From Tildeniella torsiva UHER 1998/13D (lineage in GTDB: Bacteria; Cyanobacteriota; Cyanobacteriia; Phormidesmidales; Phormidesmidaceae), in assembly GCA_019358835.1 (NCBI GenBank), contig JAHHIH010000002.1:62001-126000 (forward strand): 64,000 bases of DNA, given 5' to 3'. A model generated the notes under the pieces. That model saw only the letters and a list, made by a program, of their open reading frames with translations, had not been told where the DNA came from and made no database searches. A program made the position numbers and the translations under genes. Positions 5,868-23,777 of the stretch are shown here, piece by piece; the first letter of the stretch is position 1; the number at the start of each line of letters is the position of its first letter.

Positions 5868-5875
5868 CTAGAACT

Positions 5876-6691: not shown

Positions 6692-6693
6692 AT

Positions 6694-7239: not shown

Positions 7240-7462
7240 CAATTGTGGCTACCTGTCTCAGTATTCTCATTGCGGGACACTTCAACGAAGTTACAGGACT
7301 TTGAGGCTCGTCTCAAAATGGGATTGGCCAAACTTTAGTCCAGGGCTATAAATGGCCTAGCTACTACAGCTAATGGGAAAGGGGTCTAGACCGTAGAATA
7401 GTTGCCTGAAAGCGCAAATATTCTAGGCAGTTCGGAATACCTTGGCAGAGTTTCCTTCGTTC

Positions 7463-8092: not shown

Positions 8093-8193
8093 AGTAACTA
8101 CCTCGTTTTTCCTGGGTTTACCTAAGCCTCAAGACAGAATGCCCCACAATAGGCTGTGCCGTAGGCAATATCGGACTTTCCAGTGAAGACTCC

Positions 8194-8442
8194 TTACAGA
8201 GTATCAGATTGATCTGATTCAATTCCGCAGACTGTTGCTAACTCGTCAGGAGACCCCAAGACCGATCCAAACATGATGATGACGCGTAGTAATTCGGCGT
8301 AGTTGAGTAGGTCTAAGTCTTCTAAAAAGCTGTTAAGGAGTGATCGAGGTATCCCAGCTTTTTTGCATGCTTCTTCCTGTGTGAGACTAAGGGCCTCGAG
8401 ACGGTTCTCCACATAGTCTCTGATGGCTTGCTGGGTGTCCAC
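8194..8442 (-). CDS. small helix-turn-helix protein (cargo), 82 aa
   Basis: The N-terminal half resembles an HTH: AIRDYVENRLEALSLTQEEA, then CKKAGIPRSLLNSFLEDLDL with the turn at KKAGIPRSL. The remainder is a helical, acidic-ended stretch. Many V-K elements encode a small repressor (CvkR) next to cas12k. None is present there, and this is the only DNA-binding-like small protein in the element besides the transposase. A role controlling element genes is possible but unproven. It could equally be an antitoxin or a general cargo regulator. Confidence 0.5.
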   Translation of the reverse strand: MDTQQAIRDYVENRLEALSLTQEEACKKAGIPRSLLNSFLEDLDLLNYAELLRVIIMFGSVLGSPDELATVCGIESDQSDTL

Positions 8443-8476
8443 TGAGAAAGTCCTCCAAACAGCGTCAGAGCATAAC

Positions 8477-8513
8477 AGCCTCTTCAGCCTTCAGCTCTAG
8501 GCTTGAAGAGGCT
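8477..8513. terminator. GC-rich hairpin upstream of the HTH gene
   Basis: AGCCTCTTCAGCC (8477-8489) can pair with GGCTTGAAGAGGCT (8500-8513) with one bulge and a 10-base loop. It sits between two minus-strand genes and could terminate the 110-aa gene transcript. No strong T-run. Confidence 0.4.
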
Positions 8514-8626
8514 TGGAACGCCGCCTAGCTAACGGGTTCCCAAACGAAATTACCAGGGCACCCTCAGGGTGAGGGAACTCTGGTTGCTGCGCACCACTGC
8601 CGGGGTTAGCGACAACGTTCTAAGCC

Positions 8627-8662
8627 TGCAAGAATTATAGCCCATAGGCTATAATTCTTGCA
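8627..8662. promoter_or_regulatory. 16-bp perfect inverted repeat
   Basis: TGCAAGAATTATAGCC (8627-8642) and GGCTATAATTCTTGCA (8647-8662) are exact reverse complements around CATA. It touches the stop codon of the 110-aa gene (8663-8665). The A/T-rich stem, lacking a following T-run on the minus strand, looks more like a protein-binding palindrome than a classic terminator; both are possible. It contains TATAAT on the plus strand. Confidence 0.55.
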
Positions 8663-8995
8663 TTATTGCTCAGCGGCTTCTTCCCTCATTTTTTCTGCTG
8701 TCCAAACTAGATCGACCAAGGTGAGGTATTTCTCAACCAGTTCTGGGGTTCGCTCCCGATCGCTCAACCAAATGTTCGTAGACGTAGCCTGATAGCCCGT
8801 AAGCTCTGCTAGAAGGGCCTTTGATGCTTCCCGAAAACCTCTCTGGTCAGGAGTGATCCCTTTCTTTTCAGGCGTCCATTTGGCGCAGAAGCCGGCGGCT
8901 GAGGTCTTCTTGAACATAACGTTCTCATTACTCATCGCCGCAAGAATAAGGTGTAGCGGGATTTCTAAATCCATCTGTAGCTCATCCATTATCAA
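8663..8995 (-). CDS. unknown cargo protein, 110 aa
   Basis: I do not recognise the family. The sequence begins MIMDELQMDLEIPLHLILAA and continues with a basic middle (FKKTSAAGFCAKWTPEKKG) and an acidic helical end (LVEKYLTLVDLVWTAEKMRE). The second start, 6 bp in, is also plausible. The gene is framed by inverted repeats: the perfect 16-bp palindrome at its stop, and GGCTATGA/TCATAGCC arms at 9001-9008 and 9022-9029 just upstream of its start. Both share the GGCTATR core. Such framing suggests self-regulation. Composition is consistent with a soluble helical protein. Confidence 0.5.
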   Translation of the reverse strand: MIMDELQMDLEIPLHLILAAMSNENVMFKKTSAAGFCAKWTPEKKGITPDQRGFREASKALLAELTGYQATSTNIWLSDRERTPELVEKYLTLVDLVWTAEKMREEAAEQ

Positions 8996-9062
8996 GTTTG
9001 GCTATGAACAGGTTCTCCACTCATAGCCTATAAGCTACAGAACTAAGATTTCGGATCGCTGC

Positions 9063-9470
9063 TTATTCCACTGCCGCTGCCTCAGTGGCCGCTACCTCTT
9101 CAGCAAAAAAGATGGGCTTGCCCATAGCGGCCTCGATCTTTTTCAAAAAGGTCTGTTGACGAGCTGAGAGAAAGTCCTCAAAGTCGTCTGCCCGAAGGTG
9201 CTCCGGGTGATGACGTGGGATTGGAGGATGGCGTCCATGCTCTTGTCGTTGAGCTGGACGTGTTCGTGGGTCTGAAGTTGCTGTAAGTAAGCGCTGGGGG
9301 CTCTACCGCCGATCATCCAGTTGGCTTTGTAGGGGATGGGGGTTTTGTTGAGAATGCAGTTGCACTGGCTGCGTGGGATGTTCCTGCCTTGGCACCACTT
9401 CTGCGGAAAGATGTGGTGATGTCGAGCTTGCGCTCTAATTAACCATTTTCAACTTGGTGAGTTTGGCTGA
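9063..9470 (-). pseudogene. C-terminal fragment of a GmrSD/DUF262-DUF1524 nuclease, frameshifted
   Basis: On the minus strand one frame reads HHHIFPQKWCQGRNIPRSQC followed by NCILNKTPIPYKANWMIGGR and APSAYLQQL, the HNH-like DUF1524 module at the end of GmrSD-type modification-dependent restriction enzymes. After QSHVIT the sense moves to another frame: HPEHLRADDFEDFLSARQQT and FLKKIEAAMGKPIFFAEEV, stop at 9063-9065. The N-terminal DUF262 part is gone. This is therefore a dead remnant of an earlier defence gene in the cargo. Confidence 0.7.
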
Positions 9471-9475
9471 ATTTG

Positions 9476-12400
9476 CTAGCTCTGGTATTTTGAGTCTCTT
9501 TTCCGGAACGCTGGACGTGTGCCCTCGAGAACATCAATTATGTGCTTATTAATGACTGGATCCTCAATAGAGCCAGAGGTATAAGTAATATTATTACCAT
9601 CTAATCTATCAAATTCGGCGTGAATTACTTGCTCAGCATCACAGACAACAGCAATGTTTGGGCTGTGGGTAACCATAATAATTTGCCTTTGCCTCTTAAC
9701 TTCCTTGATTACAGGAAACAGAAGATTATAAACCGTGAAATTATCTAAGTTACCTTCAGGCTGATCGATAATTATCGGTTTCCTGCTTTGGTCAATCAGC
9801 AAGTAAAAAACTAGTAATAGAGATCCTCTTTCTCCAGGAGATAATTGAGTAAGATGTTTTTCATCCAGCTTGAGATAGTACTCAGGCTTTAGATAATCAA
9901 ACGACCATAAATAGTTGTATAAATCTTGCAATGACTTTGCTTTTTTGATCTGACCTTCAATACTTAACTTAGCTCCCAAATCATCCCTTTTATCCACCTT
10001 GAGATGTTCTATCAAGTCTGTGACCAGTTGAATTACTTCATCCTCATTATCAAAATCATATTTCGAAATTAGTGAATCCAACTTCTTCTCTCCATCTGCT
10101 TTCCCACAAAATGAACCAGTTACTCCTTGGCTAATATAGTTTTCAAAGAACTCATGCTTAAGACTAAACTCAACTACTGAAGCACCAAAGCTCAATCTAA
10201 AGTCATTCTTGATCAAAGTACTTTTGTCAATCAAATCTTGAAGTCCAGAAAATAATTGCTTATAAGTTTTGCAAATTTCAGAAGTGCATTGGTAAATATT
10301 TCTGGCTACTACTTCTCGATAAGATTCCAGTTCCTCAATTTTTGATTCCAACTCTTCTTCTACGTAGTTTATTTCGTGCTCATAAAATTTTATTGTATTC
10401 GGCTTTTCTAAACTTCCCTCGATTTCATTTTTTTCTTTTTCCCAAGTGCTAATAGCCCGAAGGTATTCTTGGTATTGCCTTTGTGGCTCATTCAGCTTTG
10501 ATTCAAGAGCTTTTATTTCTGAACTTAGACTATTTTTCCGAAAAACTAGGCTCTGCTCATTCTCATTAGAAAGACTAAGTTCTAATCTTTCTCTTTCTTG
10601 GTTAATTTTCTCTTCCAATTCTTCAATAGGTTTCCTATTAATGTCAAGTTTAACAATCTCATGAATATCTAAATCTACATTCATTAAAATGTCCGCGCTA
10701 TCGCGCATAAAACTTTGAAATTCTCCTTCAAAACTAGAAATCTTAACTTTGAAATTATCAATCTCAGCGCTATTTTTATAGATTTTCGTTCGTTTTTCCC
10801 TAGCCTCTAATATTTCCTTCTCTATACTAGAAAGCGTAGTGTTTTTGGTAGAGAGTTGATCTCTAATCGAAGCAAACTGGGCTTGGGCATCTTCCGGAAG
10901 CTCTTCCGGATTTAGAGGTTCATGAGGTTTATTTGAAATATGGCCTTCAAGCTGGCGCATCTTATTAGTCAATTCTTCTCTCAACTTTTTGAGATAACCA
11001 GGCTTTAATTTTTGTTCTAGGGAGACTATTTTTTGATTGAATTCATCCAGTTGAATCTTAAGTAACTTAGCTTGTTTCTTCGTCTCATCCGTCTTGTAAG
11101 CGATCAATTCATCCATACTGTTTTGCTCTAGTTTTTGAGCTTCGTCCAGATGAGAAAAGATAACTTGTTGAATCTCCTGCTGAAAAAGACTTTTTTCAGA
11201 GTCATTGTTTTCTGTACAAACCTCTTCCAAGTAGGATTGAGGTATATAAATAGTAGATTCAATAGAGTCAGGGCTAGGATTTTCATTTAGCCCTATCGGC
11301 CCAACTTCTACACCGTCTTCCCAAAGAAGAGATGCCTCAAAGTTAGCTGCCAGTCTTCCACTCTTAATGCGGAATCTATCTTTAGTTAAAAAAGAGAAAT
11401 GCTCTTTCTTTCTGGTATTTCCAACCAAAGCAATGATGTCCGTTAACGCACTTTTCCCTTTGCCTTTATTTCCAATAATGGCAACTAATCCATGATTCAA
11501 GTCTAATTCGCAATCAAACCATTTATCCCTTAAACTTGAGCTTTCTTTTTTCTTGATTCTCACACGAGATATATAGAAAGTTTTGTTACTATCTACTACA
11601 TCAAGCTTAGGTGGACGCTTACCTATATGAATTCTATCCTCAGGCTCATGAACTATCTGGCACAATCCCTCAAAGGTCGGATCGGCTTTTGCCCAGAAGA
11701 ACTTATCTGTTGGCCTTGATTTCTCATCTTTCAAGCGGCCTAATTCTTCTTTTACGTTATGAGAATCACTTCCCTTAACACATGGCTTTAACTTGCCTAT
11801 CCAATCTTTAATTTGTTGCTCAGAGTATTTTTCATGCTTCCCAAGAAAAAAATTAATTTGATTTTCGTTGGAAGAACCTATTAAGTCCGCAGATTTAATC
11901 AGTCCAGTTTTGAGAAGCTTGTCAGAATTAGGATCAATTTCATCAATGCCGCCATATTCATCATAAGGAAGCCAAATTAAATACTTGTTCTTGAAGGTTT
12001 CGCTTTTAAGCTGCAACAAGATTTCATTGAAACTTACTGATACATCATTAAGTAGAAATTTAGGATCTAAATACTTAGAGCCGATCATTTCGTCGTTTAT
12101 CTTAAGACTCTTTATAAAGGTTTCAACATTATCTATATCAACTTCATCACTAAAAATGATGTGAAAGTTAATTCTTACACCTGACCTACCATGCCTATTT
12201 TGAAGTATATTATTCATTCTGCACTCTACGACTGGCAGAAGTTTTTTGGTTTTAACAATATTTATAGCTTCACTATAATCTTGGTCAGCAGAGGGATTGC
12301 CCTCAGACTCTTGTAATATACTTTTTAAGTGCTTATACCCATCTACTGAAAAGTAATCATTGATTCCTATTAATGAACAGTCATGTCGAGCCAGTTGGAA

Positions 12401-12505
12401 AATAAATTCTTCCCATGAGCCACTGAAGTTATATGAGGCTGGACTATGGACATGTAAATCCCATTTTCGCCACTCTGAGCCTTTAGGAAATTTTGCTAGT
12501 ACCAT
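9476..12505 (-). CDS. PHP-domain / SMC-like ATPase (TrlF-like), cargo
   Basis: The 1009-aa protein joins an N-terminal PHP metal-phosphoesterase domain (KWDLHVHSPASYNFSG at about residues 14-29) to a split ABC/SMC ATPase. Walker A is AIIGNKGKGKSAL near 345-355, a long coiled coil occupies roughly 430-760, and the C-terminal half has signature LSPGERG (about 888), Walker B PIIIDQPEGNLDN (about 908) and H-loop IIMVTHSPN (about 945). This layout is that of TrlF-family proteins, whose substrate is not known to me. It lies 245 bp downstream of hsdS on the same strand. The gene is markedly A+T-richer than its neighbours, suggesting a separate origin. A nucleic-acid-processing defence role is inferred from architecture and company. 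Confidence 0.75.
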   Translation of the reverse strand: MVLAKFPKGSEWRKWDLHVHSPASYNFSGSWEEFIFQLARHDCSLIGINDYFSVDGYKHLKSILQESEGNPSADQDYSEAINIVKTKKLLPVVECRMNNILQNRHGRSGVRINFHIIFSDEVDIDNVETFIKSLKINDEMIGSKYLDPKFLLNDVSVSFNEILLQLKSETFKNKYLIWLPYDEYGGIDEIDPNSDKLLKTGLIKSADLIGSSNENQINFFLGKHEKYSEQQIKDWIGKLKPCVKGSDSHNVKEELGRLKDEKSRPTDKFFWAKADPTFEGLCQIVHEPEDRIHIGKRPPKLDVVDSNKTFYISRVRIKKKESSSLRDKWFDCELDLNHGLVAIIGNKGKGKSALTDIIALVGNTRKKEHFSFLTKDRFRIKSGRLAANFEASLLWEDGVEVGPIGLNENPSPDSIESTIYIPQSYLEEVCTENNDSEKSLFQQEIQQVIFSHLDEAQKLEQNSMDELIAYKTDETKKQAKLLKIQLDEFNQKIVSLEQKLKPGYLKKLREELTNKMRQLEGHISNKPHEPLNPEELPEDAQAQFASIRDQLSTKNTTLSSIEKEILEAREKRTKIYKNSAEIDNFKVKISSFEGEFQSFMRDSADILMNVDLDIHEIVKLDINRKPIEELEEKINQERERLELSLSNENEQSLVFRKNSLSSEIKALESKLNEPQRQYQEYLRAISTWEKEKNEIEGSLEKPNTIKFYEHEINYVEEELESKIEELESYREVVARNIYQCTSEICKTYKQLFSGLQDLIDKSTLIKNDFRLSFGASVVEFSLKHEFFENYISQGVTGSFCGKADGEKKLDSLISKYDFDNEDEVIQLVTDLIEHLKVDKRDDLGAKLSIEGQIKKAKSLQDLYNYLWSFDYLKPEYYLKLDEKHLTQLSPGERGSLLLVFYLLIDQSRKPIIIDQPEGNLDNFTVYNLLFPVIKEVKRQRQIIMVTHSPNIAVVCDAEQVIHAEFDRLDGNNITYTSGSIEDPVINKHIIDVLEGTRPAFRKRDSKYQS

Positions 12506-12750
12506 TGTTCTATATACCTTTCAAAAAATAAATACTTTGCATTAGTCTTAGCATTTTTATAGGCTCACTGTCGAATAATATATAAGCAAATAAATTTAAC
12601 AATTCTAATTAAGCTTTTTCTGCTCTTTTTTGCCTGAAAAATAGAGTGGCAGAAACGCCTATTTTCTTAATTATTTATGTGATAAAAAATACGTTTTAAC
12701 CTTCATCTAATTAATGCTAAAGAATTTATTTCTTATTGTGGATAAGTCAC
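12506..12750. other. A+T-rich gap between hsdS and the PHP-ATPase gene
   Basis: These 245 bp are strongly A+T-rich with several near-consensus -10-like elements on the minus strand. No ORF or strong hairpin was found. It probably holds the promoter of the PHP-ATPase gene. Confidence 0.4.
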
Positions 12751-14421
12751 TCAAACTGCCAAATTATTAATTGCCGAGGCCGCTAATGCCTCTGCCTGCT
12801 GCTGCTGCTGTCGCAGGCTTTCTTCGAGCTGGTCGCATAGGTTCATTAACTCATCAACTCTGACGATGATGCGTTTTTGTTCGGCTAAGGGTGGCAGAGG
12901 GATAAGAATATTAGCAACTTGAGGCTGACTTATAGAAGCTTGTCCAGATGCTTGTTTTGAAACCTCCTGAAAGAAGCTCCTCACCTTACGAGTCCTAAAA
13001 AACAAATTTACATACTCAGGGACAGTTTCTTTGCACAAAAAACGAACTCTGATATTCATAGCTTCAAAGACAAAAGGCTCTCTTATATCAGCGACTAAAG
13101 CCGCTTTACCGACTAGCTCTCGACTATTTACTCTGTTAACAATTAGATCACCTTTTTCTAATGCGTATGCTTCAAGTTCATTTTCGTCAACGAGAACTCT
13201 TTTTATCTTAGCCAAATCAAGGTAGCCGTCTTGTATGTTATACATGCGAATAGATGCGGTACCTTGATCAGAATAATATCTAGATGGTTTGTATAGCCCA
13301 TTCGTAAAGGACTCAGCCAATTGTCCTACTACAACCCATTCCCATGTCTTAGGAATTTCAAATTGGTTTTTGTCTCCCTGAGTCCTTAGACTATTACTCT
13401 TCTTATTCCGCCTGGCGGTTAATTTTTCTGCAAGAGATTCTATTTTCTTTAGTAACTCTTCAACTGATGCGTCAGATCTATTTTGTGGCAACAACTTTCC
13501 TCTAACTGCCATTTGTAAAATTGATTGTCTAAATCCCTCAACATCCTCAGCCCGATCGCACATCAGCTTCCAGTTATCCCTCACGAAGGCCCAGGCAGTT
13601 TCTAGTTCGCTATCGCTGGGAGCATTCATCAGCCCATCTAGGGCAGAAGCGCGCAGGTTTTGGCGCAGAGTGTTGCGGGTTTGCTGTGCCGCTTTGAGGG
13701 CATCACACAACGCCATCAACTCATCCACCTTCGCCACAATCCGCTTCTGTTCTGCCAGGGGTGGTAAAGGGACTGAAATAGAGTTCATCTTGGCCTGATT
13801 CATCTTGGGCTGTGCTGTCCCAGTTATGTAAGGCTTCAAGTCAATCGAGTTGATAAATATTTCTAGATACCTTAAATAGTCATAAGAAATTCCATCTAGG
13901 ACGTGAGCATGATTATTAACCCAGTATTTACCCGTCGCGATAAATGCAATAGGTGTCGATCGGTTTATGAGATTAGCCCCGTCCTCCCCTATCAAAAGTA
14001 GAGGTTTATCAAACAGAAAATCATCGATTTTATCTATTACCCCAGAAGCGCCATAGTAATCATAGATTCCCTGGCGACTTTGCCTTAAATCCTTTGAGAG
14101 AGGAATTCTCTCCCCATCTCGACATATCGTAACTTCTCCAAATTTTGCCCATATCCAGTTCTTTGGAGCTGGATATATTTCCTTAACATCCGGAGGATTA
14201 CTTGATTGAGAAGCTTTAGCCTTCTTACCCTTAAGGATTCTATTTCTCTCAAAATTAATGATTTCTATCAGCTTTTCAGCAGACTCATCCTCTGGATCTT
14301 GCGGCACTAACCTCCCCCGCACCGCCATGTCTAAGATCAGTTCCCGCAACCGCTGAATGCCGTTGGGTGCTTCGGCCAGAGTATCAAAGTGCTCAAAAAA
14401 CGTTTTCAAATCCATGCCCAC
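12751..14421 (-). CDS. hsdS: type I restriction-modification specificity subunit HsdS
   Basis: HsdS recognises the bipartite DNA target of a type I enzyme. The 556-aa protein shows the duplicated plan: a spacer helix, target-recognition domain 1 (about 75-215), the conserved PLPPLAEQKRIVAKVDELMA helix (about 215-235), a second spacer and target-recognition domain 2 (about 355-500) ending with ILIPLPPLAEQKRIIVRVDE. Ahead of each domain is a similar AVRGRLVPQ / AVRGKLLPQ segment. The first codon is GTG directly after the TPR gene's stop; an ATG two codons later (14415) is equally likely. The two recognition domains differ, as expected for an asymmetric site. Confidence 0.92.
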   Translation of the reverse strand: MGMDLKTFFEHFDTLAEAPNGIQRLRELILDMAVRGRLVPQDPEDESAEKLIEIINFERNRILKGKKAKASQSSNPPDVKEIYPAPKNWIWAKFGEVTICRDGERIPLSKDLRQSRQGIYDYYGASGVIDKIDDFLFDKPLLLIGEDGANLINRSTPIAFIATGKYWVNNHAHVLDGISYDYLRYLEIFINSIDLKPYITGTAQPKMNQAKMNSISVPLPPLAEQKRIVAKVDELMALCDALKAAQQTRNTLRQNLRASALDGLMNAPSDSELETAWAFVRDNWKLMCDRAEDVEGFRQSILQMAVRGKLLPQNRSDASVEELLKKIESLAEKLTARRNKKSNSLRTQGDKNQFEIPKTWEWVVVGQLAESFTNGLYKPSRYYSDQGTASIRMYNIQDGYLDLAKIKRVLVDENELEAYALEKGDLIVNRVNSRELVGKAALVADIREPFVFEAMNIRVRFLCKETVPEYVNLFFRTRKVRSFFQEVSKQASGQASISQPQVANILIPLPPLAEQKRIIVRVDELMNLCDQLEESLRQQQQQAEALAASAINNLAV

Positions 14422-15387
14422 CTACTCCGTATCCGTCAATTTTTTCCTCAGGGCTTGTCGCACTTCAGCCAATGGCTCCATCACCTCTGCCTCAAACTGA
14501 TCTAGTCCCTCTTTGCGGTACAGTTTCAGCGCCCGCTCCAAGTCCTTCAGTGCTAGCTCTAGCTGCCCCATCGCCCGATGCACCAACCCCCGAATTTCGT
14601 AGCTTTTTCCAAACTTAGGGTCTTGCTGTATGGTCGTGTTGCAGTCTTTTAGCCCTTCTTCATAGCGCCCTAGACCATACTTAGCCCACCCCCGCCACAG
14701 GTATGTCGTTCCCAAGCTCGGCATTAAATCAATCGCCTTCTCTGCCGAGGCCAAACCCTTCCCCAACTCACCGATATAGCAAAATGCCTCAGCTAGACAG
14801 CAGTGCGTTAAGAAAAAATCTGACTTCAGCTTGTCCGCCTGGATAAAATCGCCTAATGCCCGATCAAACTTGCGTAGATAGATAAACACAGTCCCCCGCC
14901 CCAGGTAACCCATAAACGCCTGAGGGCCATTGGCGTTGATAATCTCGTTATTGAGGGTCAGCGCCTTTTGATACTCCTTCAGACCACAGTGAGCGGCTGT
15001 GGTCATCAAATGGATGCCTGGGTTATTAAGCGTTTGTCGAGAGGCTTGCTTAAAGTCGGCTAACGCTCCACCATAAGCCTTCTCAGTTAACTTCACCTGC
15101 CCGCTCTCCACATAGAGCCCTGGGTTTTTGGGCTGCTGGGCAATCGCCTGCTTGTAGAACTTTACGGACTCTTTGGCATTACCCACATCCCTTGCCGCTT
15201 GGGCCTTAGTTACCAGCGGTTGTATCTGCTGCTGCCGTGCAGGTTTCCACACATACTTCCATGCCGCCCAGGCTCCAATTGCCACCATCAACAGCACCGG
15301 AATCGGATGCCCTGTTGTAAAGGCGACAAAGCTGATGTACGCCAAAGACCCTAAGAAAACGTAGTCCGCAAACCGATAGCGACCCAT
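14422..15387 (-). CDS. membrane-anchored TPR protein inside the restriction operon
   Basis: The 321-aa protein begins with a hydrophobic hairpin (YVFLGSLAYISFVAFTTG, then IPVLLMVAIGAWAAWKYVW) that should form two membrane segments. At least five tetratricopeptide-like repeats follow, for example AKESVKFYKQAIAQQPKNPG and LELALKDLERALKLYRKEG. Its start overlaps the hsdM end by one base and its stop touches the hsdS start, so it is embedded in the operon. TPR domains bind proteins, and a membrane TPR protein is not a standard type I subunit. It may tether or regulate the enzyme, but no function is proven. Confidence 0.75.
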   Translation of the reverse strand: MGRYRFADYVFLGSLAYISFVAFTTGHPIPVLLMVAIGAWAAWKYVWKPARQQQIQPLVTKAQAARDVGNAKESVKFYKQAIAQQPKNPGLYVESGQVKLTEKAYGGALADFKQASRQTLNNPGIHLMTTAAHCGLKEYQKALTLNNEIINANGPQAFMGYLGRGTVFIYLRKFDRALGDFIQADKLKSDFFLTHCCLAEAFCYIGELGKGLASAEKAIDLMPSLGTTYLWRGWAKYGLGRYEEGLKDCNTTIQQDPKFGKSYEIRGLVHRAMGQLELALKDLERALKLYRKEGLDQFEAEVMEPLAEVRQALRKKLTDTE

Positions 15388-16859
15388 CAGTCATCTCTCC
15401 GCTCTAGCGCCACCATCAAACTAGCTTTGAGGGCATACCGAGCCTTGTCGGCTGCTATTGCAGCTTCCTGATACTGCCCCAGCAGCATCATTGGGTCTTC
15501 GTGCTTATCTTCCGGGGCATTGGGGTTCTTAATATCTAGGTTGTAGCCATTGGTGATGATGTCCGCCACCGGCACCTTCCAGGCTTGCTCAGTCTCTTCT
15601 CGGTTGTGCCACCAAGCTTTCTCTGGGGCAAACTCCTCCACACGCAGCGGCCTCGTCTTCGAGTACGACTTGTAGCCCGCTGGGTAGGGGTGCTCGTAAT
15701 ACCACACCGCCTCCGTCGGCTCCCCCTTCATAAAAAACAGCACATTGGTACGAATGCTGGTGTAGGGGTTAAACACACCATTGGGCAAGCGCACAATCGT
15801 GTGCAGGTTGCAGTCGCGCAGCAGTTTTTCCTTCACCCGTGTCTTAATGCCCTCGCCAAACAGGGTGCCATCGGGCAACACAATCGCCGCCCGCCCCCCC
15901 GGCTTCAACAATTCCATCACCAGCACCAAAAACAGATCCGCCGTCTCCCGCGTACGAAACTCCGTGGGGAAGCCCCCCTCAATACCGTCCTCCTCCATAC
16001 CCCCAAAGGGCGGATTCGTCACCACCACATCCACCCAGTCCTTAGGGCCATAATCGCGCAGTGGTCGACGCAGGGTATTGTCGTGGCGAATGTTAGTCGG
16101 TACCTCAATGCCATGCACCATCATGTTGGTCACACAGAGCAGGTGGGGCAGCTGCTTTTTCTCCACCCCCTGAATGCAGCGCTTCGCCGTCTCTAGGTCT
16201 TGGGGCTTCTTGACCTGGGCTTTCAGATGCTCGTAGGCACAGGTCAAAAAGCCCCCTGTACCACAGGCAGGGTCGAGCACCGTTTCCCCCAGTTGGGGGT
16301 TGGTCATATCCACAGCAAACTGAGTCACCGCCCTGGGGGTGTAAAACTCGCCAGCATTGCCCGCACTTTGCAGGTCTTTGAGAATCTGCTCGTAGATGTT
16401 GCCAAACACATCTCGCGTTTGGCGTTGATTGAGGTCAATGCTGTCGTTGATCTTGTCGATCACCTGGCGCAGCAGAGTGCCTGACTTCATATAGTTGTAG
16501 GCATCCTCAAACACGCTACGCAGCAACAGCGCTCGCTCGCGTCCCTGCCCGCTAAATTCCTCGGGGTCTAGGTTTTGAAAGGTCTTAAACAGCTTGGTTT
16601 CAATAAACTCCAGCAGGGCATCGCCAGTTGGCGCGTCTTTGCCCAGAGTTTTACTGTCGGCCCACTGATCCCAGCACAGCGACATCGGGATAGGCGATTC
16701 GTAGTTATCGTTGTTGAGTTCTAGCTCAGCATCCTGGTCGCTAAAAATCTTGAAGAACAGGATCCAACCCATCTGCCCAATTCGCTGGGCATCGCCGTCC
16801 ACCCCAACATCCTTCCGCATGATGTCTTGAATCGACTTAATCGTGGCGCTGAGAGACAT
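15387..16859 (-). CDS. hsdM: type I DNA methyltransferase HsdM
   Basis: HsdM is the adenine-N6 methyltransferase subunit. The 490-aa protein has the N-terminal helical HsdM_N region (IGQMGWILFFKIFSDQDAEL), AdoMet motif I VLDPACGTGGFL (about 195) and the catalytic motif IV NPPFGG (about 283). It lies between the PD-(D/E)XK gene (103-bp gap) and the TPR gene (one-base overlap). Length and motifs look intact. Confidence 0.94.
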   Translation of the reverse strand: MSLSATIKSIQDIMRKDVGVDGDAQRIGQMGWILFFKIFSDQDAELELNNDNYESPIPMSLCWDQWADSKTLGKDAPTGDALLEFIETKLFKTFQNLDPEEFSGQGRERALLLRSVFEDAYNYMKSGTLLRQVIDKINDSIDLNQRQTRDVFGNIYEQILKDLQSAGNAGEFYTPRAVTQFAVDMTNPQLGETVLDPACGTGGFLTCAYEHLKAQVKKPQDLETAKRCIQGVEKKQLPHLLCVTNMMVHGIEVPTNIRHDNTLRRPLRDYGPKDWVDVVVTNPPFGGMEEDGIEGGFPTEFRTRETADLFLVLVMELLKPGGRAAIVLPDGTLFGEGIKTRVKEKLLRDCNLHTIVRLPNGVFNPYTSIRTNVLFFMKGEPTEAVWYYEHPYPAGYKSYSKTRPLRVEEFAPEKAWWHNREETEQAWKVPVADIITNGYNLDIKNPNAPEDKHEDPMMLLGQYQEAAIAADKARYALKASLMVALERRDD

Positions 16860-16961
16860 AGATTTTCAAGCGTTATTAGCAGCTACAGTGTAAAGCACAG
16901 GAATTCTGCAAAGTAACTTTAAGGAAGAAAGCAACTTTAAGGAAGAAAGATTAAAATCGAG

Positions 16962-18149
16962 TCACTCATTCCTCAAAAAATGCCTTAGCTGCTCAATCCA
17001 TTCAATATCAAGCAGGAAGCGAATTATACGCGGTTTTTGATCGATAAAAACAATAGCCTCGATTTCATTCATATAGTCAACCTTCATATCAAGAGCTCTT
17101 GTGTTTGTTAACAATCCTTGCTTTTCATAGAGCTCAAAAAGCTTTTTAGGGAGATCGAAGGAAAAGCTAAATTTTATATTATTGCGAGGAGTGGATGTGA
17201 ACCACCAACCTTTTTCGTTGTCCCAATAGATTCGAATATGATGAAGATATTTAGTAGATAGTTCTTGAAGATCGGTTCTTTCATTAGGCACTAAAAATAC
17301 GGGAAATTGCCTCGAAATCATTCCGACTAGAGCCTTGTTGACGCCCTGATCGATATATTCTCGAACTGCGTCTAAATTTTGTTGCAAATCACGCAAGACA
17401 TAGTTAGGAACTCCTTTTCCCTGTTTCATCATTGGGTCTATATGATAGACCATTGGATCTATATTATCGATTTCCTCCTCATGATAATCAAAATCCTGAA
17501 AGCCTTGATGATAAATGTTTTCATCCTGGAAGATAACAGACAGGCCAATATTTTCAAAGTTATCGAATGAGCTATTTATTTTTTTTCGAAAAAAAGCCCT
17601 GAAGTTACTCAGGTTAACCAGTATTTTTGTGTCACTCTCAGCTCCAAATGACTTCGCAGTCAGACTACCTATTTTGTCCAAGATTGGCCTCATAAATCTT
17701 GAATTTCCCAGAGGGATTAGATATACATCGTGGGCATATGCATACCTTTGAGCTGGTTCTGAATAACTAGTTGCTGAAAACAATGCGTATTGATAATGAT
17801 ATCTTGCTCTTGCTGGTGCACCATTCCTAGAAACCCAATATTCTCCAACATCTTTTAGAACTCCTATAGCATTTCTTACTACTTCTATACCCACTGATTT
17901 CTTGTTGAAGAATTTTGCCTCTACTAGCAATCTTTGTGGATTTGAGAATGGCGGTGAAACAACAAATTCAGCAATGGCATCTATTTGATGAACTCCTCCT
18001 CTTCCAAGTAGCTCTAGTCCAGCTTTTCCTTGCTTTATCGAATCGTCTTTAGGATTTATCTTTTCGACAGTACTGTAGCCAGAAGCACGAAGCAGGTAAA
18101 GCAAAATCTCCTCTAGGAGCATGCCTCTAATTTGTCCAATTGTTGCCAT
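16962..18149 (-). CDS. PD-(D/E)XK nuclease-like protein in the restriction operon
   Basis: The first 110 residues resemble an Mrr/restriction-endonuclease-like fold: helix GMLLEEILLYLLRASGYSTV, an aspartate in VHQIDAI (about 55) and the E-x-K in LLVEAKFFNKKS (about 75), followed by helix VVRNAIGVLKDVGEYW. The remaining 280 residues form no domain I know. It sits 41 bp after hsdR and 103 bp before hsdM, same strand. HsdR has its own nuclease domain, so this second nuclease-like gene is unusual. It may be a separate restriction factor riding in the same operon. Confidence 0.65.
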   Translation of the reverse strand: MATIGQIRGMLLEEILLYLLRASGYSTVEKINPKDDSIKQGKAGLELLGRGGVHQIDAIAEFVVSPPFSNPQRLLVEAKFFNKKSVGIEVVRNAIGVLKDVGEYWVSRNGAPARARYHYQYALFSATSYSEPAQRYAYAHDVYLIPLGNSRFMRPILDKIGSLTAKSFGAESDTKILVNLSNFRAFFRKKINSSFDNFENIGLSVIFQDENIYHQGFQDFDYHEEEIDNIDPMVYHIDPMMKQGKGVPNYVLRDLQQNLDAVREYIDQGVNKALVGMISRQFPVFLVPNERTDLQELSTKYLHHIRIYWDNEKGWWFTSTPRNNIKFSFSFDLPKKLFELYEKQGLLTNTRALDMKVDYMNEIEAIVFIDQKPRIIRFLLDIEWIEQLRHFLRNE

Positions 18150-18190
18150 AACTAAGCTCCAAAGCTAATCCGAAACCAGTCACAAGCTGA

Positions 18191-20554
18191 TTAAGCACTT
18201 GTTTTCTCATAAAGCATCTGCTCTAGCTCTTGTAGGGCAGCCTGATACTGTCGCTTGCCACCAAAGCTTGTGACCAACTCTACCGGAGTGCCCAGGCCTG
18301 AGAAGGGGGCAAGCTGCAAGATCTGGGTGCTCTCAATGGAGGTTATGCCTTGGTCAGCATACTTCTCTAGCAGCCCCTCTAAGACCAGCTTGGCCGTTTC
18401 TCCGTACTTGGTAAAGACATCGCGCTTTTTCACTTGCTCAGCCCGTTCTCGGCGGGTGAGGGGTGGCTGATTGAACGCCACATGGCAGACCAGGTCAAAG
18501 GGGTCGTAGCCTTGCCCCACCATAGCCTCTAGGGCTTCTAGCAACACCCCCTGCTCCTGAAGTTCTTGGAGAATGGCTGCCTTGCGATCAGACTCATTCC
18601 ACTTGGTCAAAAATTGATTCAGCGACGTATACGCTTCAATCACGGTACGGCGGGTGTAGTCGCGCAGCGATTCGGTGGTCAGCTCGCCATTTTTGTCGTA
18701 GTAGCTCACCTGTTCCTGCACCACCTGAAACTCTTGGTGGCTGACGGTGTATTTGATGCGCTCTCCGGAAATGGGTGGGTCAACAGGTTGGATAGCGTCA
18801 GTGCCGTCGGTGCTGTCCGTGCCTGAGCCGCCATTAGAGCCATCCCCCTGCTCCTGGCCAAAGTCCTCATTCTGAAACGGTGGCCCATCCCAGTCCTCAT
18901 CCTTGAAGAGACTGGTTGCCCCCCGAAAGTCGATGATGGTGAAGTAGTTTTTGCCGTAGTCGGGCCGAAGGCGCGTTCCTCGCCCAATGATCTGCTTAAA
19001 TTCCGTCATCGACTGAATGCGCCGCTCCAGCACAATCACCTGGCAAGTCTGGGCATCGACTCCGGTAGTCATAAGCTTTGAGGTAGTGGCAATGACCGGG
19101 TAGATCTCATTGGGGTTAATGAAGTGGTCCAGCTGAGCCTTGCCCTCTTTCTCATCCCCAGTAATTTGCATCACGTAGCGGCGATCTTTTTGCACTAGCT
19201 CGCGGTTAGCATCCACATTCATCAACGCATTCCGCATTCGCTGAGCGTGATCTATGTCTTCGCAAAACACAATGGTCTTGCGCATCGGGTTGCCATCGTG
19301 CAAAAACTCACTGACGTACTGGGCCACCAGCTCGGTACGGCGGTTAAATTTGATCGTGCGGTCGTAATCCCGCAGGTTATAGATCCGATCTTCGATCAAC
19401 TGACCCTGGTCATCCACCTCTCCGGTCTCAGGCTGCCAGCCATCTAAATCCTTATCCAAGCTCACCCGCACCACCTTAAAAGGGGCTAAAAAGCCGTCTT
19501 CAATTCCTTGGCGTAGGGAGTAGGTATAAACTGGCTCCCCAAAGTAGTCAATGTTAGAGACATACTTGGTCTCCTTGGGCGTCGCCGTCAACCCCACCTG
19601 AATCGCGGTGGAGAAGTAGTCCAACACCTGTCGCCAGCTAGAGTCATCGGCAGCGCTGCCCCGATGGCACTCGTCGATCACCACCAGGTCAAAGAAGTCG
19701 CGGTCAAACTTTTCGCAGAGGTTATCCTGCCCTTCGTTGCCAATGATCGCTTGGTACAGCCCCAGATACACCTCGTAGGAAGTGTTGATGCGGCCATTCT
19801 CATCCAGTAGCCTGCGAGTCAACTTGGTTTTCTTATCGCCAAAGGGCTCAAAGTCGTTGGTAATAGTCTGATCAATCAGAGAATTGCGGTCTGCCAAAAA
19901 CAGCACCCGCTTCACTGTCCCCGTCTTCCACAGCCGCCAGATGATATTGAACACCGTATAGGTTTTGCCCGCGCCGGTCGCCATGACCAGCAGGCAGCGC
20001 CTTTGGCCTCTGGCAACGGCTTCAATTGTGCGGTTGACGGCAAGCTGCTGGTAGTAGCGAGGATTCTTCCCCCCGACCTTGGTGTAGAACTGGGAGGTCA
20101 GAAGGTCTTCTTTTTCTAAAGAAATCTGCTGCCACTGGAGATACCGTTGCCACAGCTCTTCTGGCGAAGGGAACGACTCTAGAGAAATTTCTCGTTCAAT
20201 TGATCCATAGGTGCCGGTACGGTCATGCAGCAAAAAGGCATCCCCATTGGAGGAAAACACAAAGGGTGTACCCAGAGTGTCGGCGTAGCCTAGAGCCTGC
20301 TGAATACCAGCATTAACGCTGTGCTTGTTGTCCTTAGCCTCAATCACCGCGATGGGTTGGTTGGTGTGGTGAAACAGCACGTAATCCGCTCGCTTCCGGG
20401 CTCCCCTGGCGGCGATCGGCCCTCGTACAATCATCGGCCCATCAGTAAAGGAAAGCTCTCGACGGATCTGAGACCGTTTCCAGCCCGCCTGGTGCAGAGC
20501 CGGAGTGATGTATTGATCACAAATGTCGGCTTCGCTTAGCTCTTTTTTTGACAT
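18191..20554 (-). CDS. hsdR: type I restriction endonuclease HsdR
   Basis: HsdR is the ATP-driven translocase and nuclease subunit. The 787-aa protein starts with the PD-(D/E)XK nuclease domain (ADYVLFHHTNQPIAVIEAKD, E-A-K at about 72-74). The superfamily-2 motor follows: Walker A VMATGAGKT (about 193), DECH box (about 293), SAT-like GLTATP, then the second RecA lobe with IIGRGTRLRPD. The C-terminal region is helical. The gene is divergent from cas12k with a 241-bp shared upstream region and heads the cargo operon. An acidic, glycine- and serine-rich linker (EQGDGSNGGSGTDSTDGTD) joins the motor to the C-terminal part. Confidence 0.94.
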   Translation of the reverse strand: MSKKELSEADICDQYITPALHQAGWKRSQIRRELSFTDGPMIVRGPIAARGARKRADYVLFHHTNQPIAVIEAKDNKHSVNAGIQQALGYADTLGTPFVFSSNGDAFLLHDRTGTYGSIEREISLESFPSPEELWQRYLQWQQISLEKEDLLTSQFYTKVGGKNPRYYQQLAVNRTIEAVARGQRRCLLVMATGAGKTYTVFNIIWRLWKTGTVKRVLFLADRNSLIDQTITNDFEPFGDKKTKLTRRLLDENGRINTSYEVYLGLYQAIIGNEGQDNLCEKFDRDFFDLVVIDECHRGSAADDSSWRQVLDYFSTAIQVGLTATPKETKYVSNIDYFGEPVYTYSLRQGIEDGFLAPFKVVRVSLDKDLDGWQPETGEVDDQGQLIEDRIYNLRDYDRTIKFNRRTELVAQYVSEFLHDGNPMRKTIVFCEDIDHAQRMRNALMNVDANRELVQKDRRYVMQITGDEKEGKAQLDHFINPNEIYPVIATTSKLMTTGVDAQTCQVIVLERRIQSMTEFKQIIGRGTRLRPDYGKNYFTIIDFRGATSLFKDEDWDGPPFQNEDFGQEQGDGSNGGSGTDSTDGTDAIQPVDPPISGERIKYTVSHQEFQVVQEQVSYYDKNGELTTESLRDYTRRTVIEAYTSLNQFLTKWNESDRKAAILQELQEQGVLLEALEAMVGQGYDPFDLVCHVAFNQPPLTRRERAEQVKKRDVFTKYGETAKLVLEGLLEKYADQGITSIESTQILQLAPFSGLGTPVELVTSFGGKRQYQAALQELEQMLYEKTSA

Positions 20555-20743
20555 AAATCTGACCTGACAGGTTCGGCAGGAGTGTCTATGGCCCTAGGAA
20601 GCGACCGCAAGCATACCCTTTACTTCCTCATTGATACCCAAGTATCCCTATGAAATATAGCTACAGCCGAACTCTTCACCCGGATTTTGCAAACAAGCGT
20701 ACAGCCCAAGTTCCTCAAGAGAGAAACCCACAAAGTCTCCAAC

Positions 20744-20771
20744 TTGACACCCACGGAGCAAGTAATAAACT
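20744..20771 (+). promoter_or_regulatory. putative cas12k promoter
   Basis: TTGACA (20744-20749), a 16-bp spacer and TAAACT (20766-20771) lie 24 bp before the cas12k ATG. The -35 box is perfect and the -10 box fair. The 20555-20795 gap also has to hold the hsdR promoter on the minus strand. Confidence 0.45.
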
Positions 20772-20795
20772 ATTCTTTTCTAGTACAAAAAGACT

Positions 20796-22652
20796 ATGAG
20801 CCAAAAGACAATTCGCTGCCGACTCGTCGCCTCAGAGGCGGCCCGAAAAGCTATTTGGCACCTTATGGCAGAGCGCAACACACCTCTGGTTAACGAAGTA
20901 GTCCGCAAACTACCGGAGCACCCTGACTTCCTTACCTGGCAGCAGCGAGGCAAACTGCCGGATGAGCCTATCAAAACGTTGGTCGATTCACTCAAAGCTG
21001 ATCCTCGCTTTAGTGAGCAGCCTATTTGGTATTACATATCAGCTCAAAAGCAGGTGACTTATACCTTCCGAAGTTGGTTAAGCCTTCAACGTCGAAATCA
21101 GTGGCGAGTTGAGAGTAAGCGGCGCTGGCTTAATATTCTCCGCCCTGATAGTGAGCTAGCGGAGAAAGCTAAATGTAGCTTGGAGAAGCTACAAGACACT
21201 GCCCAGAGTATTCTGGGCCAGATTGACGCTCCAGATCCCTTCAAGTGGCTGATGCAGGAGTATGGGCGTACAAAAGCTGCTAAACGCCAGATGGTTTTGG
21301 CTTACCTACTCAAGCGCAGTGGAAAACTTGAGCCTGTCAAAGAAGACCTGGAAAAACTGGCTCAGAGGTACCGCAAAACTGAGATTGCTATTCGACGGTT
21401 AGAAATTCAGCTTAAGGCTAGCTTGCCAAAAGGGCGGGATTTAACTGGCCAAGCCCATGATTTAGCTTTGGAGCAGGCCACAACGGCTCCCCCACTAGAC
21501 GATGAGAGCTATGGCACTTGGCACCAAGCTTTGGCCCGAGAACCTGCCAAATTCCCCTTCCCAATCATCTACGAGACTGTAGAATGCCTGACCTGGTCTA
21601 TTGATGATAGGGGACGTATTCTAGTTCGCTTTAGCGGCAAAGGCACAGGCGATCACGTCTTTAAGATCTACTGTGATAAGCCCCACCAGCATTGGTTTGA
21701 GCGATTTCTAGATGACCAAGAGACGAAGAAATCTAGCGGCGATCAACATTCAGCAGGGTTGTTTACGCTGCGATCGGTCAAGCTGGCTTGGGTGCCCTCA
21801 AAAGCCTATCAGAAGGAGCTAGAACCCTGGAATTGTTATCACCTAACCCTTGCCTGCACGGTGGATACTCGTTTATGGACACAGGAAGGCACTCAAGTCG
21901 TAAAAGAGGAAAAAGCAGCGGGGACGGCGGCTAAGCTTCAATCGATGCATGCGAAAACAGCCCTAACTAAAAATCAACAAGGCTATATTCGCCGCTTAGA
22001 ATCCACCTTGGACAGGCTCAATGCTCCCTACCCTCGACCCAGCCGCCCCCTTTACCAAGGAAAGGCAAATATCTTGGTTGGGGTCGCGATGGGGCTGGAG
22101 AAACCTGCCACACTTGCCGTAGTGAACGTACTTACCCAGGAATTGCTGGTCTACCGCTCTATCAAGCAGCTATTGGGTGAGCACTACCGACTCTTACAAC
22201 AGGCTCGGACTGAGAAAGCAAAAACATCTCACCAAGGGCACCGGCAACGTAGGAAGGGAGGTAAGCGAATTGCCCAGGAGTCTAACCTGGGCAGCTATGT
22301 TGATCGACTGTTGGCCAAAGCTATTGTCGAAATTGCCCAACAGTATCAGGCGGGCAGCATCGTTCTACCTGACCTCAAGCATGTGCGAGAAATTGTAGAG
22401 GCCGAAGTCGGGCATAGAGCCGCAGTTAGAGTTCCTGACTTTGTTGATGGCCAAAAGCAGTACGCCAAAGCCTATCGAACACAGGTACATCGGTGGACTT
22501 ACAACCGTTTACAGCAATTCGTTACCTCTAAGGCGGAGCAATACGGCCTTGGTATAGAGGTAGTTAGCCAAAGCCATCTGGGCTCCCCCCAGGAAAAGGC
22601 GAAGGAACTTGCGCTTCAAGCATACGAAAAACGATTGGCTGCACTGTCTTAG
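20796..22652 (+). CDS. cas12k: Cas12k, nuclease-dead RNA-guided targeting effector
   Basis: Cas12k binds a tracrRNA-crRNA pair, finds DNA next to a GTN PAM and recruits TniQ/TnsC without cutting. The 618-aa protein is in the family's size range and lacks RuvC catalysis: the RuvC-I strand reads ILVGVAMG (about 426-433) with no aspartate, and RuvC-II reads IVLPDL (522-527) with D where the glutamate should be. The basic GHRQRRKGGKR stretch (481-491) and RWTYNRLQQFVTSKAEQYGL before the end are as in other Cas12k proteins. The tracrRNA and array follow directly downstream on the same strand. No CvkR-type repressor gene lies beside it. Confidence 0.95.
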   Translation: MSQKTIRCRLVASEAARKAIWHLMAERNTPLVNEVVRKLPEHPDFLTWQQRGKLPDEPIKTLVDSLKADPRFSEQPIWYYISAQKQVTYTFRSWLSLQRRNQWRVESKRRWLNILRPDSELAEKAKCSLEKLQDTAQSILGQIDAPDPFKWLMQEYGRTKAAKRQMVLAYLLKRSGKLEPVKEDLEKLAQRYRKTEIAIRRLEIQLKASLPKGRDLTGQAHDLALEQATTAPPLDDESYGTWHQALAREPAKFPFPIIYETVECLTWSIDDRGRILVRFSGKGTGDHVFKIYCDKPHQHWFERFLDDQETKKSSGDQHSAGLFTLRSVKLAWVPSKAYQKELEPWNCYHLTLACTVDTRLWTQEGTQVVKEEKAAGTAAKLQSMHAKTALTKNQQGYIRRLESTLDRLNAPYPRPSRPLYQGKANILVGVAMGLEKPATLAVVNVLTQELLVYRSIKQLLGEHYRLLQQARTEKAKTSHQGHRQRRKGGKRIAQESNLGSYVDRLLAKAIVEIAQQYQAGSIVLPDLKHVREIVEAEVGHRAAVRVPDFVDGQKQYAKAYRTQVHRWTYNRLQQFVTSKAEQYGLGIEVVSQSHLGSPQEKAKELALQAYEKRLAALS

Positions 22653-22765
22653 CAACTGGTTACTAAAGCCATTACCCTTGAAGGCAAAAGAGGCGATATT
22701 AATACTGAAAAAACTTTAGCCACGAGTGGGCGACAAAACCAGCAAGAAGCGCTAGTATAAATGCA

Positions 22766-23010
22766 CTAAAAGCGCCGCAGGGCATGCGAAAGCCTCTGTT
22801 CTGTGAAAAATGAGGGTTTGTTTGGCTGCGAGATAGCAGTCTTACTTTCTGGCCCTGGTAGCTGACCACTCCGATGCTGCTGTTGTAAGTGAACTTGCTT
22901 GGACTTGGACACCGTGCAACAGGATGAGGGGCGCACCCAGCAAGAGAGGACGGACTTACTGTAGTGTTGGCTGCCGAAACAACTCCGACCAAGGAGTAAT
23001 CCATGCATCC
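22766..23010 (+). ncRNA. V-K CAST tracrRNA
   Basis: The stretch after cas12k follows the known V-K tracrRNA order: GCGCCGCAGGGCATGC near the 5' end, AAATGAGGGTTTGTTTGGCT, TCTTACTTTCTGGCCCTGGT, AGCTGACCACTCCGATGCTG, then a late stem ACTCCGACCAAGGAGT. ACTGTAG (22958-22964) is complementary to CTACAGT of the CRISPR repeat, and AATCC near 23000 can pair with GGATT at the repeat's 3' end, giving a split anti-repeat. A TAGTATAAA sequence near 22753-22761 is a suitable -10 box. Ends are estimated. Confidence 0.88.
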
Positions 23011-23204
23011 ATATATGTATCTTAACCTCCGCGAACCTCAAGCGCAGGACTTTTTCCTGGTAGGTTCGCGCAGCCTTAAAGCCCCATCCGTTGGTACTGC
23101 CACACAAAAGGGCATGTTTAGGATAGTTGAGCAGGCTGTTGAGAGGACGGTTCGCGATCAAAGGGTCTACATGTCCTGTGAACCGAGGGATTCAGATGGG
23201 TGCT

Positions 23205-23445
23205 GTCGCATTGGGCTTCTACAGTCCATGAGGATTGAAACCAGGTGAACATGAGCCGCTGAGCGCTGACGACCACGTCGCATTGGGCTTCTACAGTCCA
23301 TGAGGATTAAAACTCCTTGCCGCACAGGATGATTCGGCGCTCCTACCAACGGTCGCATCAGGCTTCTACGGCTAATAAGGATCATCCTGTACGGTCCCAA
23401 ACAGGAGCACCGCGTCAAGCTTCTATGGCTTATAAGCAAGCAAAT
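23205..23445 (+). CRISPR. short CRISPR array, two good repeats then decaying copies
   Basis: Repeat 1 (23205-23241) and repeat 2 (23277-23313) are 37 nt, beginning GTCGCATTGGGCTTCTACAG and ending GGATTGAAAC (GGATTAAAAC in repeat 2). Spacer 1 is 35 nt (23242-23276) and spacer 2 about 38 nt (23314-23351). A third unit at 23352-23388 keeps GTCGCATCAGGCTTCTACGG but has lost the 3' end. A fourth at about 23409-23445 keeps only GCTTCTATGGCTTATAAG. Because the 3' end must pair with the tracrRNA, units 3 and 4 are probably inactive. No cas1/cas2 is present, as usual for V-K. Confidence 0.9.
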
Positions 23446-23479
23446 TAGCAGCTCTTAACGGTTAATACGGTTCGGATAG

Positions 23480-23530
23480 TCTGTTTGAACTATTATTTAG
23501 AAGCATGGATTGAAACGAATCCCGCCAGCC
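23480..23530 (+). CRISPR. delocalised repeat-spacer: homing guide against tRNA-Arg
   Basis: An atypical repeat ends ATGGATTGAAA at 23515, about 35 bp after the last array remnant. The next bases CGAATCCCGCCAGCC (23516-23530) are identical to 15 nt of the tRNA-Arg gene's T-arm and acceptor stem (minus strand 23682-23668). The target is preceded by GGTT, a good NGTN PAM. Counting the leading C as spacer is what gives this PAM; in the main array that C belongs to the repeat. The match stops after 15 nt. Short private guides of this kind direct V-K elements to their tRNA attachment site. Confidence 0.88.
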
Positions 23531-23550
23531 TTGACTGGGCAGATACGTTC

Positions 23551-23617
23551 GGGCGACACTAATCCCGGAACAGTGACCATAATTCCGGAACGATGCCAAA
23601 TAATTCCGGAACGTACA
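23551..23617. repeat. transposon end, CRISPR/tRNA side, with three TnsB-type sites
   Basis: Read inward on the minus strand, the terminus is TGTACGTTCC at 23617. TnsB-like units lie at 23593-23613 (CGTTCCGGAATTATTTGGCA), 23573-23592 (CGTTCCGGAATTATGGTCAC) and 23551-23572 (TGTTCCGGGATTAGTGTCGC), spaced about 20-22 bp. The closer spacing here, compared with the other end, is the usual asymmetry of Tn7-like ends. Confidence 0.88.
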
Positions 23618-23622
23618 TTAGC
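23618..23622. repeat. target-site duplication TTAGC, tRNA side
   Basis: This is the second copy of the TTAGC found at 3982-3986. It directly follows the last base of the element. The distance from the inferred PAM (23683) to the element edge is 65 bp. Confidence 0.92.
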
Positions 23623-23645: not shown

Positions 23646-23664
23646 AGCCCAATGATGCAAACAA

Positions 23665-23738
23665 CGGGGCTGGCGGGATTCGAACCCACGACCTGCCGCT
23701 TAGGAGGCGGCCGCTCTATCCTGCTGAGCTACAACCCC
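23665..23738 (-). tRNA. tRNA-Arg (anticodon CCU), CAST attachment gene
   Basis: The 74-nt minus-strand gene folds as a full cloverleaf: acceptor GGGGTTG/CAGCCCC, D-stem GCTC/GAGC, anticodon stem GCCGC/GCGGC with loop CTCCTAA (anticodon CCT), T-stem GTGGG/CCCGC with TTCGAAT loop. CCA is not encoded. It lies 39 bp downstream of trmB on the same strand. Its 3' half is the target of the transposon's private guide and remains intact after insertion. Confidence 0.96.
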
Positions 23739-23777
23739 AGGTCTTTGGCCATTCTACACTCTGGCCTGGAGGTGGGG

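Follow-up and report, generated by a model that had tools for sequence, protein, structure and literature searches.

Organization of the element

The stretch of 64,000 nucleotides analysed here, which we call the window, carries the genes and features of a Tn7-like type V-K CRISPR-associated transposon (CAST) next to a tRNA-Arg(CCT) gene (Table 1). The genes tnsB, tnsC, and tniQ are arranged in this order at one end of the element and cas12k is located at the other, and the core genes are all open reading frames. The window Cas12k matches the Cas12k of PDB entry 7n3o with an E value of 5.5e-167. No match to tnsA has been found among the element proteins scanned with Pfam, NCBIfam, and PADLOC, which are a subset of the ORFs. 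On the 3′ side of cas12k, a putative tracrRNA region is followed by two good repeats, two decayed repeats, the homing unit, and the transposon end. The element begins with TGTACGTTCC at 3987 and the inverted copy, GGAACGTACA, finishes at 23617; both the TGT...ACA ends and a 5-bp target duplication are present. Judged by its cas12k, the ordered tnsB, tnsC, and tniQ genes, its ends, and the array downstream, this sequence is a type V-K CAST.

Table 1. Features of the CAST and its target site, in window coordinates
Feature	Position	Strand	Remarks
Target-site duplication TTAGC, copy 1	3982..3986	.	
Type V-K CRISPR-associated transposon (Tn7-like)	3987..23617	+	19,631 bp, from tnsB end to array end
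tnsB	4192..5757	+	PADLOC TnsB_0_V-K 513 bits; Pfam Mu-transpos_C
tnsC	5876..6691	+	PADLOC TnsC_0_V-K 168 bits; Pfam AAA_22 and TniB
tniQ	6694..7239	+	PADLOC TniQ_0_V-K 158 bits; Pfam TniQ
cas12k (618 aa)	20796..22652	+	NCBIfam V_Cas12k 762 bits, cut-off 150
Putative tracrRNA region, limits approximate	22660..23110	+	anti-repeat GGAGTAATCCATGC at 22993-23006
CRISPR array	23205..23351	+	two good 37-nt repeats (ends GAAAC, AAAAC) and spacers
Two decayed repeats	23352..23437	+	between array and homing unit; repeat families D1, D2
Homing (delocalized) repeat, core GCATGGATTGAAAC	23503..23516	+	short, divergent; ends GAAAC at 23516
Homing guide	23516..23533	+	C (shared with repeat end) and 17 bases: 14 exact, 2 G:U-compatible, 1 exact
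Array-side transposon end	23559..23617	+	three ATAATTCCGGAACG-type repeats, putative TnsB sites; family D3
Target-site duplication TTAGC, copy 2	23618..23622	.	
tRNA-Arg(CCT), intact	23664..23739	-	Rfam tRNA 67.9 bits; insertion downstream of its 3′ end
Protospacer, exact part	23668..23682	-	T-arm/acceptor of tRNA-Arg(CCT)
PAM GGTT	23683..23686	-	on the tRNA strand, directly 5′ of the match

According to PMC9938897, V-K CASTs usually carry a small regulator gene beside cas12k in the reverse orientation. No ORF of at least 80 aa has been found in 20555–20795, where a divergent regulator beside cas12k was sought. The cargo (9476–20554) is defence-like and includes a TrlF-family ATPase, type I restriction-modification genes (hsdS, hsdM, and hsdR), and a gene for a protein of 395 aa that weakly matches Mrr_cat. 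Besides the window locus, cas12k occurs at two places in the host genome (5.8 Mb, 48 contigs), G000:C30:360277-362169 and G000:C26:124-1671. The C30 element has a GAAAG-ended homing unit aimed at tRNA-Val(cac), and no unit was identified beside the C26 copy when GAAA-ended units with a GT-preceded target were searched for.

The insertion site

In the relatives G421 and G408, the upstream flank of the element is joined to the first 40 bases of the downstream flank without interruption, with a single TTAGC between the two. The two TTAGC copies that border the element in the window are therefore explained by a clean insertion that duplicated 5 bp of the target. In both relatives this stretch is not located beside tRNA-Arg, and it thus documents the junction rather than the ancestral surroundings.

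A nucleotidyltransferase gene (Pfam Polbeta/NTP_transf_2), which is followed by a 136-aa ORF, has seemingly lost its 5′ end to the insertion (3255–3949 and 23618–23657). The region is unbroken in G421 and G408. In another relative, a lone V-K end (L166 up to base 195, on G410:C170) is located 59 bp away from the PAM of the corresponding tRNA-Arg(CCT), with other sequence where the array and cas12k would stand. It is perhaps left over from an earlier insertion there.

A probable homing unit aimed at the adjacent tRNA-Arg

The initial annotation had described an atypical repeat set apart from the array, followed by 15 nt identical to the T-arm and acceptor stem of tRNA-Arg, and had interpreted it as a private homing guide that explains where the element sits. 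The anatomy is as described. A truncated, divergent repeat is located beyond both the array and the decayed repeats, and CGAATCCCGCCAGCC at 23516–23530 on the forward strand has its reverse complement at 23668–23682 (15 of 15 bases), with no further copy in the window. The annotated GGTT PAM directly precedes the match on the tRNA strand, and the gap of 65 bp between the PAM and the element edge at 23617 is confirmed. Past base 15, the guide reads TT against CC in the target, a difference that is G:U-compatible in an RNA-DNA duplex; a matching G follows, and then the two diverge. The contiguous exact match is 15 bases, and the guide spans 18 bases from the PAM when the two G:U-compatible ones are included. 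The PAM and guide taken together (GTNCGAATCCCGCCAGCC) have one perfect site in the host genome, at tRNA-Arg(CCT), and the next-best is a single site with one mismatch.

Since tRNA T-arms share sequence, some similarity is cheap, and the match could in principle have arisen by chance. However, the longest tRNA match in 2000 dinucleotide shuffles of 23205–23617 is 13 and none of the shuffles reaches the observed 15. The PAM and the 65-bp spacing agree independently of the match, and recurrence of the unit with its PAM and spacing has been looked for and found in relatives. Chance is an exceedingly improbable explanation on these grounds.

The anti-repeat GGAGTAATCCATGC is found in five loci of the Cas12k clade described below and in L153. 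The predicted duplex of the window homing repeat with the tracrRNA has an energy of -15.1 kcal/mol, a value as low as which is not obtained in any of 2000 shuffles, while 674 of 2000 shuffles are as stable as the duplex of the array repeat with the anti-repeat. In all six clade loci, the predicted duplex of the anti-repeat is more stable with the homing repeat (-11.9 to -18.7 kcal/mol) than with the array repeat (-6.4 to -10.1 kcal/mol); the comparison covers the anti-repeat, and array repeats may also engage the tracrRNA elsewhere. The weakest homing duplexes are those of L110 and L111, in which the repeat has C for T. The predicted pairing supports the view that the homing unit is maintained as a crRNA. 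No sigma-70-like promoter has been found in 22600–23700, where shuffles averaged 1.0. This counts against the reading as a homing unit, as do the contiguous match of only 15 bases, the G:U-compatible instead of exact bases at positions 16 and 17 from the PAM, which always match in the GAAAG-ended units described below, and the 17 of 71 regions in which the search gave no unit.

Homing guides separate from the array have been published for type V-K CASTs, as described in PMC9938897 and PMC11406308. PMC9938897 gives a 17-nt anchor spacer, a truncated repeat of ~12 nt, a GTN PAM, and a distance of 46–82 nt between the PAM and the transposon end, with one exception of 147. For ShCAST, an insertion window of 61–66 bp and a 17-bp heteroduplex are given in PMC9876797. 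In the window, the truncated divergent repeat and the short guide, located outside the array, would produce a crRNA that pairs with the tracrRNA of the element. The crRNA/tracrRNA would be loaded into Cas12k, which would bind the T-arm of tRNA-Arg(CCT) beside the GGTT PAM, and TniQ, TnsC, and TnsB would then insert the element about 60–66 bp downstream, past the 3′ end of the tRNA. The sequences show the unit with its match, its PAM, and its 65-bp spacing, as well as the duplication, a conserved potential for tracrRNA pairing, and the same arrangement in relatives; transcription and processing of the unit, Cas12k loading, and insertion by the window guide are inferred. The window unit is very probably the homing unit of a type V-K CAST with its guide aimed at the adjacent tRNA-Arg. 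A private guide of this type would explain the position of the element, as the anatomy and the published V-K CASTs suggest.

Homing units in other V-K elements

The search for Cas12k covered 386 genomes of the phylum and 63 of the order, two sets that overlap. Of the 71 regions examined, 68 lie on the 3′ side of cas12k places, some of them fragments, and the other three are those of the window, L149, and L153. Units were searched for as a GAAA end followed by a guide to a GT-preceded target, with at most four mismatches in 17 bases and at most one in the first nine. These mismatch limits partly account for the frequent matches at the first guide positions, and they impose nothing on positions 16–18. 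Homing units recur in cyanobacterial V-K elements: 54, the window unit included, have been found in the 71 regions, and 51 have their target inside a tRNA called by ARAGORN, which faces the element in every case. The units without a called tRNA at the target are L063, L110, and L125. The remaining 17 regions yielded no unit by this search; among them, L149 has a unit that was removed by the distance filter, and L108 and L126 consist of 809 and 170 bases. Cas12k of this kind is present in two plasmid records, at below 60% identity, and as one fragment in a genome contig database; none has been found on viral contigs.

The units that end in GAAAG number 48, and in all of their targets NGTN directly precedes guide base 1. 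Guide and target match at positions 16 and 17 in 48 of 48 units and at position 18 in 12 of 48, which is the chance rate; for the 31 distinct GAAAG guides, the corresponding counts are 31, 31, and 7. Because positions 16 and 17 always match and position 18 does so at the chance rate, the homing guide of the GAAAG units is 17 nt long, as published. Position 15 of this guide is less strict, with matches in 41 of 48 units, as if contributing little. At the GAAAG loci with a repeated 3′ end, the arrays also end in GAAAG in each. The shortness of the match, a caveat of the initial annotation, is partly answered by these 48 units, in which short guides are the norm; the window match itself still has 15 contiguous bases.

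The targets of these units also bear on the proposal that the 15-nt match is an att repeat, a duplicate of the tRNA 3′ end derived from a tyrosine-integrase island, and not a guide. The 3′ ends of tRNAs are common integrase sites, and the match spans the T-arm and the acceptor stem. On the other hand, the match and the tRNA have opposite orientations, the match stops 87 bp inside the element instead of at its edge, and the element's own duplication is TTAGC. No tyrosine integrase has been detected among the element proteins scanned with Pfam, NCBIfam, and PADLOC, a set without some of the smaller ORFs. Homologous units also target other parts of the tRNA: in 36 of 46 GAAAG units, the target begins at tRNA positions 18–24. 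The att-repeat proposal is very unlikely.

The GAAAC clade

Six of the 54 units, those of the window, L110, L111, L113, L127, and L153, end in GAAAC. The target has a C opposite the final C of GAAAC in all six, which places GT one base further off (frame GTTC). In all six, the match reaches position 17 after the C and is thus one base longer from the PAM than in the GAAAG units. Differences before position 17 after the C occur only at positions 14–16 and are always a guide T against a target C, which is G:U-compatible; no other kind of change is seen over the 17 bases in the five of six units whose guide departs from its target. The array repeats of the clade also mostly end in GAAAC. The initial annotation had cautioned that its match depends on reading the last C of the repeat as spacer base 1. 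This caveat is partly answered by the recurrence of the feature in all six units, and since all six end in GAAAC with the C matching the target, it becomes a trait of the clade.

The full-length or nearly full-length Cas12k proteins of the clade are 69–72% identical to that of the window, and other full-length ones are at most 48% identical. In a tree of 36 Cas12k proteins, the window, L056 (the locus of L113), L054 (L110), L042 (L111), and L045 group with a support of 1.0; the first four of these are loci with a sampled homing unit. The cas12k genes beside L127 and L153 are fragments, covering profile positions 469–629 near a contig end and 1–88, respectively, and the L153 element is considered broken for this reason. 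The clade targets start at tRNA positions 57–66 in all five units with a called tRNA, compared with a start at 57 or later in 5 of 46 GAAAG units, a difference that may be explained by shared ancestry.

Two further members, the unit L149 and the remnant L159, also end in GAAAC, and their tRNA-like targets are not called by ARAGORN or not scanned. ATGGAYTGAAAC is common to all eight GAAAC units listed. The decayed remnant L198, located at tRNA-Arg(ccg), ends in GAAAT and has further mismatches that include other kinds of change. The degraded L159 (G415:C29) and L198 (G405:C34) keep a homing unit and repeats, with no cas12k match on either contig, and the drift of their guides is mostly T for C. 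The pattern GCATGGAYTGAAAS was searched for in 57 genomes, and the 21 places inspected include no new clade unit. Six of these places are the known units L203, L204, L205, L207, L209, and L216; the other 15 have been read as chance, with at most two right-end-like motifs and no anti-repeat.

The clade also helps to judge whether the window guide is a relic, once functional and since inactivated by its two PAM-distal changes and the decay of the neighbouring repeats. Two of the four array repeats are decayed, bases 15–16 after the repeat differ from the target, and degraded relatives exist, both on contigs without a cas12k match and at L153, where cas12k is a fragment of residues 1–88. In contrast, the core genes of the window element remain open, both guide changes are G:U-compatible, and the next base matches. 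The same kind of change occurs alone in the five clade units that differ from their targets, whereas the decayed L198 also has other kinds. Loss of function is therefore an unlikely, though not negligible, alternative to a maintained guide.

The register of the clade guides

Two readings of the final C fit the sequences. The C may pair as guide base 1, with a GTN PAM and an 18-long heteroduplex, or the PAM frame may be shifted by one. If the C is only the end of the repeat, the guide would have the usual 17 nt, with GT one base off in the frame GTTC. Our tentative proposal is that the last base of the clade repeat could double as the first guide base, in an 18-bp R-loop from a GTN PAM, or else that the PAM frame is GTTC.

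The T-loop sequence GTTC is nearly invariant across tRNAs. Because all clade targets are T-loops with this sequence, the match of the C is not independent evidence. All four target types (Arg-CCT, Arg-CCG, Pro, and Leu) agree with the guide at position 18 from the PAM, for which the chance expectation is 0.25^4 = 0.004. The extra base is thus unlikely to match by chance, with one of the four types coming from the broken L153 element. Against the 18-base reading, the G:U bases would then fall at positions 16 and 17 in the window and at 17 in L153, positions that never differ in the GAAAG units.

A changed PAM for the clade has also been considered. T287 and R421 are named as PAM-contact residues in PMC10949235. 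They align with T261 and R400 of the window Cas12k, and T and R are present in all five clade proteins aligned. The conservation of T261 and R400 counters a changed PAM and argues for an unchanged GTN PAM in the clade, which favours the reading with the C as guide base 1. ShCas12k R78 aligns with W78 of the window Cas12k; this residue is Trp in all five clade proteins and Arg in all 31 others.

To learn the register of the array guides, protospacers have been searched for with three of the clade arrays, those of the window, L110, and L111, and phages were searched with the L110 array only. No match has been found among plasmids for the window array, or among plasmids or phages for the L110 array. 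Across 60 genomes of the order, the L110 array matched its source locus, four known clade arrays or repeats, and repeat-length sequences in G415 and G418. The L111 array had one weak match among plasmids (E 0.5), which was not used.

Relation to known systems

The window unit is a further example of a known trick, the homing guide published as “delocalized crRNA” or “anchor spacer”. It resembles ShCAST (Tn7747) in its Cas12k and TnsB/TnsC/TniQ, in the truncated repeat outside the array with a short guide to an adjacent tRNA, and in the GTN PAM and the distance of about 60–66 bp to the insertion. It differs in that its repeat ends in GAAAC, its target is the T-arm of tRNA-Arg(CCT), and its guide is C plus 17 bases with two G:U-compatible ones. 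The homing repeat of ShCAST presumably ends in GAAAG, and the ShCAST delocalized crRNA reportedly targets tRNA-Leu (Saito et al. 2021). A 17-bp tRNA-Leu motif of ShCAST is given in PMC10949235.

The cyanobacterial V-K anchor spacers, as described in PMC9938897, share the R* repeat of ~12 nt, the short spacer, the GTN PAM, and the range of 46–82, within which the window distance of 65 falls. The published spacer is usually 17 nt, whereas the window unit has 18 nt from the PAM and shares the last base of the repeat. The window PAM frame is GGTT when this last C is counted as guide and GTTC otherwise. The atypical crRNA of Type I-F3 CASTs is also a private, divergent repeat-spacer for a chromosomal att site; in these systems the effector is Cascade and the att sites are others (PMC11406308).

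The new detail appears to be the register, since the GAAAC units of the clade, as aligned here, are one base off the usual pattern of GAAAG and a 17-nt guide. No description of a clade-wide one-base overlap of repeat and guide has been found in the literature searched, in which subscription journals are thinly covered, and one may be in print.

As a natural case of guide-RNA homing, the window element is clean, and its insertion junction is well supported. If the proposed register is true, the clade would be tied to tRNA T-loops (GTTC) and could retarget between tRNAs by PAM-distal guide changes alone, with G:U pairs tolerated. If the terminal base of the repeat pairs with the target, the PAM-to-guide register of Cas12k would be more flexible than the characterised systems suggest, and such flexibility would bear on guide design for V-K tools.
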